Source: Coniochaeta sp. PMI_546 (lineage: Eukaryota > Ascomycota > Sordariomycetes > Coniochaetales > Coniochaetaceae). From it: a DNA stretch of 64,000 nt. Position numbers and translations under genes: made by a program. Where the stretch lies: the NCBI GenBank assembly GCA_021432605.1, contig MU271146.1, forward strand, positions 2,356,001-2,420,000, given 5' to 3'. Under the pieces are notes generated by a model. It did not search any database and was not told the origin of the DNA. It worked only from the letters and a program-made list of their open reading frames with translations. This document shows, piece by piece, positions 27,454 through 49,477 of this stretch. Every line of letters begins with the position of its first letter. Positions within the stretch are counted from its first letter, which is position 1.

Positions 27454-30110
27454 ATGTCGTAAGTTGCTTACGCTCGCAGCGGTTTCCTTCTCTTGACCTG
27501 CGGCTGGGAGATTTGTTGCGACGCCTTACTGCTGTCGTAGCTCCCTGTGCCGCACTCCTCCTCCATCCTGGCTACCCATGCTTGTTTGGCAACTTTGGCC
27601 GTCCGCAGACCGCATTAGCATAATTTACAACGTTCCTGTCACATTCTGTCTTTTTTAACCTGGTAACTAACCCATAAATCCCCAGAACCTCGCGGCGCAG
27701 CAGTCGACACATAAATATTACCGTTGACGGCGGCGGCTACACCACAGGCGCCAGCTCATCCAGCTATTCGGAAGACGACGAAGGGGAACCGTCTCGTCAA
27801 GGAAGTCGCGAGTACGTCTCGTCGCGACCGCCCGGGGAGGAGCATTGGGATCAAGGATACGGCGAGGTCGATCCGTCCGACTCCGCATCAGCTAGCGCCG
27901 AATACTACGAGCAACATCATCGACGACCGCAGAGCGCCCGCCCCCGCAGCAGCTCGCGCCACCACAGAATCCCGTCCGGACGTCAATCATACACGGCCTT
28001 CCGCGCTCCGATACCACCCGCAATGAGTAGCGAACCGTCAGAGGAGTACGACTACGGTCCAGGATACGGCCGTGGCGCTTATGGCCCCCCACCTCCACAT
28101 GGCCACGCCGCCTTTCCCTACGGCGGTCGAGGACACCATGCTCCCGCATATCCTCAAAGTGTCGGTCCCTTTATGCCGCCAGCCCAGTACGGCGGCTCCA
28201 TGGTGCCGTTCAATCCATTTTCTCCCATGTCATCCAACGGTGCAAACTACTTCGACCGTGCACCCTACGATATGGTGCCGTACCACCAAGGTCCTCAAAG
28301 CTACTATGGCGGCCCAGGGCCGGGACCGGGATATGGTGCACACCAACTCCAGCAGTACATGTACGGACCACCACCGGCTCCGCCAACTGAAGCACCTGGA
28401 CCAAGGTCAGCGACACCGGCACCACCGGCAGAGAAGAAACCTGACCCCGAAGTCGAGGCAATGAAAGCCAAGCTCGAGTTGTTCGAAAAGGAGCGGCGCA
28501 GAAAGGAGGAGGAAGAGAGACGGAAGGAAATGGAGGAAAAGATACGGAGAGACACCGAAGAAGCACTACAAAGACGGATGGAGGACATACGAAAAGCGCA
28601 GGAAGAGGCGAAGAAGGAGATTGAAAGGGCCAAGGCCGACGCCGAGCGTGCTGCAAGGGAGAGGATAGAAGCGGAGCGCAGGGCGGAGGAGGAACGACAA
28701 AAGCTTCACGCCGAGGCCATGAAGCGGGCAGAACGCGAGGCGAGGGAGAAGCTTGAAGCGGAGATGAGGGCCATCGAGGAGCGCAGGAAGCGCGAGGCTG
28801 AGGCCGAGGCGGAAAGGGCACGGCTCCACAAGGAAGCACTTGAGAGGGCTGAACGTGAGGCCAGAGAGAAACTGCAAGCCGAATTGAGGGCGATGGAGGA
28901 GAAGAAGAAGAGGGATGCGGAGGAAGAGGCGGAAAGGAAGAGGTTGCACGACGAGGCTGTCAAGAAAGCTGAGGAGGCGGCAAAAGCCAAGATGGAGGCC
29001 GAGTTCAAGGCGGCCGAAGAGAAGAAGAAGGCTGAAGCCGAGGCTCAAGCCAAGGCCGAGGCCGAGGCCAAGGCCAAGCTCGAGGCTGCCATAAGGGCAG
29101 CAGAAGAGGCCAGGTTGGCGGCCGCCAAGAAGGCGGAGGAGGAGGAGGCATGGAAGAAGAAGCTTCAGGAGGAAGCCAACCTCAAAGCTGAAGTCGAGGC
29201 CCGGACGAAACTGGAGGCTGAGAGAAAGGCGGCCGAGGATGCGAAGGCGGCCGCAGAAGCCAAGAAGAAGGAGGAAGAGGCATTGAAGAAGAAACTGCTC
29301 GAAGAGGCCAAGACCAAGGCGGAGGAGGCACAGAAGAAGGAGGACAAGGCGCCGATCAAGTTCAAGGATGCTGTGGGCCGGAAGTTCAGCTTCCCCTTCC
29401 ACATCTGCAAGACGTGGCCTGTATGTATACCGAGATTTTGCCTCCTGCTTGACCACTTGCTAACCGACTCTCTGCAGGGCATGGAAGACCTGATCAAGCA
29501 AGCCTTCCTCCACGTCGATGTCATTGGCCCCCACGTCCAGGAGGGACACTACGACCTGATCGGCCCCAACGGCGAGATCATCCTCCCCTCGGTATGGGAG
29601 AAGGTCATCGAGCCCGACTCCAGCATCACGATGCACATGTGGCCGATGGACAAGGCCCCCCTGCGAGGCCAGATGCATCCGGGCGGACCTCCAGGCATGG
29701 CAGCCGGTATGCGACCTGGTCATCCCGCCGGCATGCGAGCCGGTCATCACCCTCAAGTCCGACCCATGCATCCCGGAATGATGGGCGGGATGCGTCCGGC
29801 AGGCACGAGACCGGCAGGTGCCGGAGGCATGGGCGCTCCTCCAGTTCCGCCGCAGTTTAGGGGAATGGGTGGTATGGGACCACCTGGCGGGATACCGATC
29901 CGGCCTGGCGGCGGAGGAGTCACTCCGATGGTGATTGGTGTCGAGCCGCCAAGGAAGAAGAGCAGTTCCAAGTCTGGCGCCTCACTGATGGGGTGGATGG
30001 CCGGGAAGCCCACGAAGAGCGGGCATAAGAAGTATGTTGAGCTGTGTGGTTCACAGTATCCGTGGTCGCAACGAGTACTAATTTCTTCTCACAGGAAGAG
30101 CGGCAAATGA
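27454..30110 (+). CDS. Coiled-coil protein with fungal ubiquitin-like domain
   Basis: Four exons (27454-27458, 27686-29420, 29478-30031, 30095-30110) encode 769 residues. The first exon holds only ATG and two bases; joining it in phase gives MSTSRRSSRHINITVDGGGY, and the frame then runs without a break into the long ORF. Residues 1 to about 250 are disordered and rich in Gly, Tyr, Pro and His. About 255-555 form a very long Glu/Lys/Ala/Arg coiled coil. About 558-640 (KFKDAVGRKFSFPF, GMEDLIKQAFLHVDVIGPHV, ITMHMWPMD) match the ubiquitin-like domain seen in many filamentous-fungal proteins. A Gly/Pro/Met-rich tail follows, ending KKKSGK. The biochemical role is unknown; a scaffold role is only inferred. 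An internal ATG at 28023 would lose 114 residues of plausible coding sequence. Confidence 0.85.
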
Positions 30111-45549: not shown

Positions 45550-45656
45550 GGTGAGATGGCCGAGCGGTCTAAGGCGCCACGTTAAGGTCTTATAAACCTT
45601 AAAACATCAGTTATCCGTGGTCCGAAAGGGCGTGGGTTCGAATCCCACTCTCATCA
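45550..45656 (+). tRNA. tRNA-Leu(AAG) with a 27-nt intron
   Basis: The acceptor GGTGAGA pairs with TCTCATC (one G-U), followed by discriminator A at 45656. The D arm reads GCCGAGCGGTCTAAGGC. The anticodon stem CCACG/CGTGG encloses loop TTAAGG with anticodon AAG at 45584-45586. A long variable arm (TCCGAAAGGGC) marks it as class II, and the T arm GTGGGTTCGAATCCCAC is perfect. The intron at 45588-45614 starts after position 37 and contains CCTTAA, complementary to the anticodon loop, as usual in eukaryotic pre-tRNAs. The 3' CCA is not encoded. Confidence 0.95.
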
Positions 45657-46247: not shown

Positions 46248-49200
46248 ATGGTATGTTCAAATCACCTTCTTACACGTTTCCCCGCTAGTACATGTATGAG
46301 TTAAGCTAACCCGGCTTTGCGGACAGGCGGTCTCCGGTGCCTACGCACGATATGCTGAGCAAGACGAACCCGGCTTATATCTGGTATATCCCCCAGATGA
46401 TCGCGTGACCTGTACTTGCGAGTAAGTCGCTCCACATGAACAGCTTAGCTCGAGGCTCAGCTCGTTCGCCTTGATACTGTCCAAGATACCGATGCTGACC
46501 TGGGGTGTCTAGCGTGTTCGTCATCCATGGCCTTCATGGCGGCGCAACAAAGACATGGAAGCATCCCGACTCCGGAACCATTTGGTTCAGGGATATGCTT
46601 CCTGGCCTCATCCGTTCTGAGGGTCAAGGGGCTAACGCGCGCATCTGGACGTATGGTTATCCGGCGAATGTCGCTTTTCAGACATCCTCAATCTATGACT
46701 TCGCCCAGACTCTTTTAAACAGGGTCAAGGACGTGAGGAAGGACAATAATGTGAGTGAAGGGTGTCCGACGGGCAGTGGGGACATCGATCTCTGATCAAG
46801 AAGCAGGACAGGAAGATTGTATGGGTGTGTCACTCGCTAGGGGGCCTGGTGCTTAAGCAGGTATGCTACCGTGACCCTCATACTGTTATTCGCGCAGTCA
46901 GCACAACCTAACCAGCGACATAGGCTCTGATCGAGGCAAAGATACACCCTCGGTTCAGCTCCATCAGTACCGCCACGGCCGGTATCGTATTCATGGGGAC
47001 TCCCCATCATGGCTCTGGTATGGCAGATCTAGGGACTATTGTCTCGATGGTGGTCTCCTCGGCTGTGCCTGGCAGCCGGATTTTCAACCGTGATATCCTC
47101 AGGGACCTCAAGAAGAACAACAACACGCTCTTTGGAATCTCTAGTCAATTCTCGAATATCTGCTCTGGCATGACCATTCATTCCTTTCATGAGACGATGC
47201 CCCTGGGCCCGACGATTGTGAGTCATGCCCCTCATGTTACCAAGAACGAGCTACTAACGTCCGCAGATTGTCGACAAAACTTCGGCCATAATGCATTTGG
47301 AGAATGAGCAGAAGAGGTACGGTCTATACGCAAATCATAGGGACATGTGTAGATTTAGAGACGGGCTAGATCAGAACTGGCTTTCCGTCGGATCGAGTGT
47401 AGTAGAGCTAGTGTCTCTATCTGCTCCTACTCGCTCACGAGGTAAGTCTCAACCCTGGTTCAAGCTTAAGGAATCGGTGCTTATGTACACACAGATAATC
47501 CTAACGTCCGACGTCAAGCAGCTGCGCAGCCAGCCTGGGTACAGCGGCAGACACCAGCATACTACCCCGTTCCACCGGCTGGCACTTACCCCCGAGCTGC
47601 GCAACCTAATCCAGGGCCTTCTTACGCGACACAGAATATTCCGCGGAGGGTTCCAGTACCAACAACTTCAATATACACAAGCCCTCCGGCCCAGCGGAGT
47701 GCAACACCGACATACGCACCCCCTCAACTACCTCCAGGCTGGGTGGCACAGTGGGACGTCGAGACAGGGAAGTATTTCTTTGTCGAGAGAGCAACCGGAG
47801 TGGTCGAATGGGAGCCGCCACAACCACGTCAACCCCAGTATGCGGCGCCTTCGCAGCGCAACGACAGACTGCACGTTCCTAGCTCGAGTCACCACCGGTC
47901 TGCGTCGGCAGACGCAACCCCCTCAAGACCGGCATATCCTTCTCTAAACAGGGCACATTCCAGGGAAGACTTTGGCGCAAGCTATCGATCTCAACCCGCA
48001 ACGTCAGCGCAAGCATACCAAGCATATCAGCCTCAAACCTCGTCGCGACCACCGCCCCAAAGCTCCGTCTCAGCAGCACCGACCATACCGCCCAAACAAC
48101 CACATGTTCAAGTCCCCGAAGACGACGAGTCCAGTAACCGCGAGTCAGCAACATGCGACGGTTGCATGCACGGAATCAAGTGCTCGGAGCCACGGGTGCA
48201 GTGCACAGTCTGCTACGATTACGACCTCTGCATCAAGTGCTTTCAAGCAGGCAAGGAGACCAAAACCCACAAGAACACCCACAAGCTCAGCCACATCCTG
48301 AACACGGCGTTGATACAGACCGACGACTTGATACCCGTCAAGGACATCGTGAATCCGGAATTCAGCGCCGATAAGACGCGGACCAACTGGTCCATCTCCG
48401 ACATCAAGGACGAGAACACGGGTGAAATGAAGAGCTATCGGTTCATTCACATGTACGACAACGACTCCCATGCCAGATTCTTGACCAGCGCGAGGCCGGG
48501 ACACTATGCGGTGTCTGTAGTGTTGCTAGTCAAAGTGGCCGCAGACATCAACGCCGCCGGTTTAAAACAACTACAGGAAGCCGGAGCCGGCTCCCTCCGG
48601 GTGTCGCTTGGTACAGTAAAAGTCAAAAAGGATTTCTTCGGCGCCGCCCTCGCAAACGAGGACACGTTCAACTCTACCGCGCTGACGAAGGAATCCCTGC
48701 CCCATCGGCTGCTGAACCACTACTGGTGGGACGTAGTGCAGATCGTGGTGGACGCGCCGTATCTCCATGTGCAATCCGATGCTCTACTCAACATCGAGGG
48801 TGACGAGAGCGGTTCGTTGACGGATCTGGGTCTCCTCCTGCAGTGGAGCGGATGTCATGCTTTTGCATCGAGCAACGATCCCGTTGTGTCGATTAGTGTT
48901 GAACATATACGGTTTGTGCCCCCCTCCCCCTTTTCGTTCCTTTCCCTCGTTGAGTCTAACGAGCAACAGAATGGACAACCTCCTAGACTACAACGAACCG
49001 CACATCCGCGCTCCAGCGCCAGCACCACCCAAGCCCGCCCCTGCCCCAACCCCAGCCCCGGCACAGGCAGAAGCAGAGGTAGAAGAAGAGCCAACCGAGG
49101 AAGAATTCAAGAACATCCTCCTCGGCATTCTGAGAGAGGCAGCCACCGCGCAAGAACGAGCTGCCCTACAGGCGAGGCTGGAGCAGCAGTACCGCGAGGA

Positions 49201-49477
49201 GGAGGCGGCGAAGCGTGAGCTGGTGGCAAGACTGTTCATCCAGGCTTTGGGGGAGGTCGCCGAGGAACAGGAGAGGCAGGAACGGGAGAGGCAGCAGAGG
49301 ATCGCGGCGCAACTGCTGTTCCAGCAGCAGCAGAGGGAACAGAGGGAAAGGCAGGCGCAGGCGCAGGCGGCGGCGAGGGAGCAGGCTAGACAGCAAGCCC
49401 AAATCGAAGCGGCGGTGCAGGAGGTCTTTGTGGAGGCTTATTTGGAGCAGTATATGAAGAACCTGGGGCTGAGATAG
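46248..49477 (+). CDS. SesB-like alpha/beta hydrolase fused to WW and ZZ domains
   Basis: Eight exons (46248-46250, 46327-46421, 46513-46750, 46807-46860, 46924-47217, 47267-47441, 47495-48911, 48970-49477) join in phase to 927 residues. Exon 1 is the ATG alone. Residues 20-285 are a lipase-like domain of the SesB/SERAC1 type: LYLVYPPDD, the oxyanion motif VFVIHGLHGG, the nucleophile elbow VCHSLGG with Ser122, MGTPHHGSG, and the histidine motif YANHRDMCRF with His252. A Pro-rich linker leads to a WW domain (about 365-395, Trp369 and Trp392). A ZZ-type zinc finger (about 505-552, CDGC, CTVCYDYDLCIKC, two His) is next. An unrecognised domain of about 200 residues follows, then a Glu/Gln/Arg coiled-coil tail. 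SesB-like domains are effectors in fungal NOD-like immune receptors; here no NACHT or NB-ARC is present. Substrate unknown. The exon joins rest on phase and motif continuity. Confidence 0.83.

Follow-up and report, generated by a model that had tools for sequence, protein, structure and literature searches.

The window analysed here is the whole 64,000-nucleotide stretch of contig MU271146.1 of the fungus Coniochaeta sp. PMI_546, and one of its genes (46248..49477, plus strand) encodes a protein in which a SesB-like hydrolase is followed by a linker with a WW domain, a ZZ zinc finger, a domain of about 200 residues and a helical tail. SesB-like hydrolases are effector domains of fungal NLRs, i.e. 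receptors built around a nucleotide-binding oligomerisation domain (NOD) (PMC4986451, PMC12258605, PMC9815663). The present protein shares with these effectors an N-terminal probable α/β-hydrolase lipase/esterase, and differs from them in that linker, ZZ, predicted β-sandwich and tail replace the NACHT or NB-ARC domain and the repeats. Hydrolase, linker, ZZ, domain and helical tail also occur in one protein in six further named species (P0002, Coleophoma; P0003, Lasiosphaeris; P0004, Schizothecium; P0005, Cladorrhinum; P0006, Podospora aff. communis; P0007, Metarhizium album), and because these species share the arrangement, sequence comparison indicates that the hydrolase-ZZ combination is not a chance fusion. 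The preferred reading, to which a probability of about one in three is given, is that of a conserved NOD-free SesB-like effector hydrolase that may work as an oligomerising, ligand-gated lipase. The elements of the gene are as follows.

46248-46250, 46327-46421, 46513-46750, 46807-46860, 46924-47217, 47267-47441, 47495-48911, 48970-49477, plus strand: exons 1 to 8, by in-phase joining
46251-46326, 46422-46512, 46751-46806, 46861-46923, 47218-47266, 47442-47494, 48912-48969, plus strand: introns 1 to 7
46248..47440, plus strand: SesB-like α/β-hydrolase domain, residues 1-286, exons 1-6 (Pfam DUF676, family alignment, fold of P0004)
46807..46860, plus strand: exon 4, 54 nucleotides, residues 113-130, with the nucleophile Ser122 (46834-46836) in CHSLGG; absent from the deposited protein P0001
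47191..47193, plus strand: proposed catalytic acid Glu220 in HSFHET (conservation)
47336..47338, plus strand: proposed catalytic His252 in NHRDMC (conservation)
47728..47820, plus strand: WW domain, residues 365-395 (Pfam, 2.9e-08), lineage-specific
47935..47973, plus strand: conserved linear motif, residues 434-446, YPSLNRAHSREDF (family comparison)
48139..48285, plus strand: ZZ zinc finger, residues 502-550, with Asp508, Asp528 and Asp530 (Pfam, 502-546; KCMF1 relatives)
48301..48909, plus strand: C-terminal domain, residues 556-758, predicted galactose-binding-like β-sandwich (structure model; no Pfam family)
49085..49474, plus strand: helical tail, residues 798-927 (sequence; P0004 is modelled with one 77-residue helix, 712-788)

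The original prediction of a single gene, with eight exons that stay in frame over 927 residues up to a stop, is borne out by reading phase, splice borders, branch motifs and full-length relatives. All seven introns (49-91 nucleotides) have GT...AG borders, and in all except intron 6 there is a CTRAY branch motif whose A lies 9-17 nucleotides before the 3' end. For comparison, such a motif 8-40 nucleotides from the end occurs in about 8% of random 56-nucleotide stretches of the window. A split into two genes between exons 6 and 7 was rejected because both halves lie in single, full-length predicted proteins in P0002-P0007 and the junction is spanned by the environmental protein P0037. The latter covers the stretch from just before the catalytic-His segment through the ZZ and the C-terminal domain, and its final part no longer resembles the hydrolase-ZZ family; it probably represents an unspliced open reading frame (ORF).

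The nearest database protein, P0001 (BR93DRAFT_936666), comes from Coniochaeta sp. PMI_546 itself and equals the eight-exon translation minus 32 residues in two in-frame segments of the plus strand, 46807-46860 (exon 4 in full, residues 113-130) and 47317-47358 (residues 246-259). The first gap removes Ser122 and the second His252. In the alignment of relatives, P0002-P0006 have the exon-4 residues, which are disturbed in P0007, and all six keep region 246-259; both introns bordering exon 4 have branch motifs, and the 42-nucleotide 'intron' that P0001 implies inside exon 6 has none. Since P0002-P0006 keep both segments and the splice signals favour inclusion, the eight-exon model is probably the better one and the gaps an annotation error, most likely an overlooked 54-nucleotide exon and a falsely called intron. 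That P0001 is instead a genuine isoform, a regulatory dead enzyme made by splicing out the Ser and His segments, is very improbable: the gaps do comprise exactly two in-frame segments holding these residues, and the P0007 model is likewise disturbed at the Ser segment, but gene finders easily miss so short an exon, the branch motifs favour the exon over the implied intron, and P0002-P0006 include both segments. Users of the protein deposited for this strain should be warned that nucleophile Ser and catalytic His are both missing from it.

With these segments restored, Ser122, Glu220 and His252 form a complete predicted catalytic set, in which the acid is proposed from conservation. The Glu220 column holds Glu in 7/7 family rows, 24/24 other database rows and 5/7 rows from the own genome, and the His252 column holds His in 7/7, 24/24 and 4/7, respectively; two of the own-genome pieces without His stop before the column and one aligns badly. 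The HGLxG, HSLGG, GTPHxG and (N/D)H motifs are shared by the related database rows with few exceptions. The DUF676 match (residues 37-162) lies just above the Pfam cut-off (22.3 bits against 20.3), and a sequence comparison with solved structures gave weak lipase matches only (best E 0.014). The predicted structure of the homologue P0004 has an α/β hydrolase fold close to that of PGAP1, with two stretches below a pLDDT (predicted local distance difference test) of 50. The proposal of a SesB-like hydrolase akin to the effector hydrolases of NLR-type proteins is supported. Two further SesB-like loci of the same genome, L025:1761-2723 and L026:1244-4777, have CHGxGG and look like pseudo-enzymes because Gly takes the position of the nucleophile Ser; the L025 ORF has no Pfam match.

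The named species found, seven in total with Coniochaeta, are scattered over Coniochaeta, Sordariales, Metarhizium and Coleophoma and represent a lower bound, since the search scored the best candidates only. Among the seven full-length proteins, on which alone identities were computed, mean pairwise identity is 0.54 for the hydrolase, 0.26 for the linker, 0.56 for the ZZ, 0.40 for the C-terminal domain and 0.37 for the tail. In the hydrolase tree the family hydrolases form one clade among hydrolases that come mostly from NOD proteins. This tree comprises the own protein, P0002-P0007, 24 other database proteins (no NACHT or NB-ARC Pfam match being listed for five of them, P0014, P0015, P0018, P0032 and P0033) and pieces of 7/18 own-genome loci; it omits P0001, P0026, P0035, P0037 and the other 11 own-genome loci, which either fell into different reading frames or had not been retrieved. 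The placement of several long branches in it is unsure, and it has no outgroup. P0001, as the own protein, is omitted from the second tree. Both trees would fit inheritance of the arrangement as one unit. P0007, from Metarhizium album, groups near Coleophoma and apart from the other Sordariomycetes in both trees, for which horizontal transfer or old paralogy are possible explanations (support is moderate and there is no outgroup).

The ZZ finger, present in 22/22 scanned members (gathered partly by queries containing ZZ), has its zinc-binding Cys/His intact. Its best relatives of solved structure are KCMF1 chains (E 3.7e-9), followed by CBP, p300, Ada2, HERC2, p62 and a fission-yeast ZZ protein, presumably Nbr1. 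Asp508, Asp528 and Asp530 are conserved: of the 22 members long enough to include these positions, 21 read D/D/D and one reads E/D/D, while the other three of the 25 are too short. Asp528 and Asp530 align with Asp29 and Asp31 of the N-terminus-reading pocket of KCMF1; such pocket aspartates are common among ZZ fingers. The finger is best described as a ZZ of KCMF1/p62 type, for which binding of protein N-termini can be predicted. In KCMF1, a substrate bearing a new N-terminus was no longer recognised after mutation of Asp29/Asp31 (done once), and the DOC-type β-sandwich of UBR4 binds the KCMF1 ZZ region (PMC12286842). In p62 the ZZ binds N-degrons and thereby promotes oligomerisation (PMC5524641).

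The C-terminal domain next to the ZZ had been singled out as the part most likely to be new. As a sequence family it looks new: residues 560-760 have no Pfam match, and the matches lie only beside ZZ (8 of 3,650 candidates in a region search and 20 of 7,994 in a profile search, all proteins with a ZZ-type Pfam domain). This association is weak, however, since both queries contained ZZ and both missed known members (P0002, P0005 and P0007 in the region search; P0002, P0003, P0005, P0007 and P0037 in the profile search). As a fold it would not be new: the model points, by a weak structural match, to a galactose-binding-like β-sandwich, which is a common fold. NBR1 FW and DOC/APC10 are not among the fold matches listed, which excludes neither, and FW gave no Pfam match. 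In the own genome, the only place where the domain alone was searched, it is a single-copy domain. The helical tail that follows it is probably a coiled coil.

These components, among which ZZ and β-sandwich form a conserved unit, allow a mechanism to be proposed for the ligand-gated lipase. The ZZ and the β-sandwich would bind a ligand that is a protein, with a free N-terminus as the likeliest target, whether an N-degron or an end newly made by cleavage. The hydrolase-ZZ protein would then be clustered by its tail and the bound ligand, and the tethered hydrolases would act on membrane lipid or another ester, so that oligomerisation driven by ligand, as in p62, would replace the ATP-driven oligomerisation of the NOD. 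A more specific proposal is quite improbable as it stands: that the protein represents a separate kind of fungal sensor for immunity or damage which has no NTPase, its lipase effector being triggered when ZZ and β-sandwich catch an N-terminus newly exposed on a protein that was cleaved or mislocalised, and the tail brings about clustering. If the ZZ does read N-termini, the lipase would be gated by protein damage or cleavage.

The gene has parallels to several known systems. The KCMF1-UBR4 complex (SIFI) offers the closest solved ZZ, with the N-degron aspartates and a ZZ region that works with a DOC-type β-sandwich (PMC12286842), but it is a ubiquitin ligase within a giant complex and has no lipase, and the β-sandwiches are likened by fold, not by homology. 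p62/SQSTM1 and NBR1 also carry ZZ, that of p62 reading N-termini and driving oligomerisation (PMC5524641), whereas the present protein has a hydrolase and neither PB1 nor UBA was found in it. ZZ was found in 17 fungal NLRs in a survey of 84 Sordariales assemblies and was proposed there as sensor (PMC12258605); in these proteins, as here, ZZ is joined to parts of fungal NLRs, but they have a NOD and the hydrolase-ZZ family has none. This 2025 survey started from genes with nucleotide-binding annotation (PMC12258605), and the NOD-free family could therefore hardly be counted in it. SesB-like NLR effectors, NOD-free SesB and ZZ within NLRs are thus already known; the portions consulted of the open-licence PMC literature on these systems gave no description of a hydrolase-ZZ fusion. 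The finding matters for surveys of fungal immunity: those that take the NOD as their starting point will hardly detect effectors built in another way, such as this SesB-like hydrolase, which several fungal groups combine with ZZ and β-sandwich where a NOD would stand.

The linker is long, rich in Pro, Ala, Ser and Gln, and includes the WW domain, which had been expected to form part of a conserved switch. This expectation found no support, and WW was rejected as a core module: only 2/22 scanned members (P0001 and P0008) carry it, none of the six other named species (P0002-P0007) among them, and it is probably a later add-on of the Coniochaeta lineage. The linear motif further along is better conserved than its divergent surroundings, YPxxxxxxS(R/Q)xx(L/F) being matched in the linker of 17/25 members. 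P0039 has a Lys variant, YPxxxxxxS(R/Q/K)xx(L/F), P0042 and P0051 have part of the motif, and the other five members start too near the ZZ to include it. At residue 434 the motif has a core of the form [WFY]xx[LIV], which is one ground for considering a quality-control or selective-autophagy factor, in which ZZ and β-sandwich bind cargo as in p62, NBR1 and KCMF1-UBR4, the hydrolase edits membranes around the cargo, and Tyr434-Pro-Ser-Leu437 serves as an Atg8-interacting motif. The closeness of the ZZ to KCMF1 and its matches to p62 and the fission-yeast protein agree with such a role, as does retention of the core in 14/17 motif-matched members. It is nonetheless distinctly unlikely: P0005, P0007 and P0009 have lost the core, three more such cores occur in linker and tail so that the pattern is not rare, and the Pfam scan of the 927-residue protein found neither PB1 nor UBA.

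The same scan, with matches listed at E up to 10 (although HMMER filters lose most above about 0.1), lists no NACHT or NB-ARC and shows no ANK, TPR or WD40 C-terminal repeats, which bears out the absence of a NOD claimed at the outset. The genome otherwise holds 18 loci with SesB-like matches (E up to 0.01), and a NACHT or NB-ARC match lies just downstream in 15 of them but not at the studied gene. At 14/18 loci a NACHT-type or NB-ARC match lies 127-1,021 bases downstream, a count that used 18 NOD matches hand-picked from 45 and 11; the fifteenth, C12:60688, was added on an NB-ARC Pfam match. C2:2695746 and C12:702235 have only weak STAND-type (signal transduction ATPases with numerous domains) signals, and C3:2913356 has none. 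In six-frame searches of the genome, which considered the best candidates only and ignored introns so that counts are lower bounds, 0/45 PF24883 matches and 0/11 NB-ARC matches fall on the contig of the window (C4), and an NLR partner gene next door was rejected as a candidate.

This bears on the possibility that the protein is a NOD-free executor of incompatibility or defence whose separate receptor binds the linker motif or the ZZ. The precedent is SesB of Nectria haematococca, likewise a NOD-free hydrolase of SesB type, which works with sesA and shares its C-terminal motif with a neighbouring STAND protein (PMC3321046), and here too a short motif stands out in a poorly conserved linker. The C-terminal amyloid-type motif and the adjacent STAND gene of SesB are, however, not seen at the studied gene: none of four regular expressions for σ/PP amyloid-type motifs, written from the published consensus and not as profiles, matched, and no adjacent partner of NACHT or NB-ARC type is seen on the contig. 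An executor of this kind is rather unlikely.

A constitutive housekeeping lipid esterase, similar to PGAP1 or SERAC1, in which ZZ, β-sandwich and tail only scaffold its placement, with neither gating nor immunity, is possible, although still on the unlikely side. The homologue model close to PGAP1 would fit it, and so would a hydrolase conserved about like the ZZ (0.54 and 0.56), the single-copy domain, the housekeeping surroundings and trees compatible with one-unit inheritance; the last three are unlike a recently duplicated NLR-type gene and weigh against an immune role. The counterpoint is the scattered occurrence in at least seven named species, together with the predominance of NOD-protein effector domains among the sequences related to the hydrolase. 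On the present data the esterase, executor and autophagy readings are poorly separated from the preferred one.

As for the surroundings, 10/29 large ORFs of the window were scanned with Pfam, and those with matches are mostly of housekeeping types (MIF4G-like, TGT, adaptin, SAC3 and Hrd1-like RING). An ORF at 27678-30110 (plus strand) has a ULD_2 ubiquitin-like domain. Shortly upstream of the gene, at 45550-45656 (plus strand), lies a tRNA gene (Rfam RF00005, 46.7 bits) that was not called by ARAGORN as run and that, by eye, is an intron-containing tRNA-Leu.
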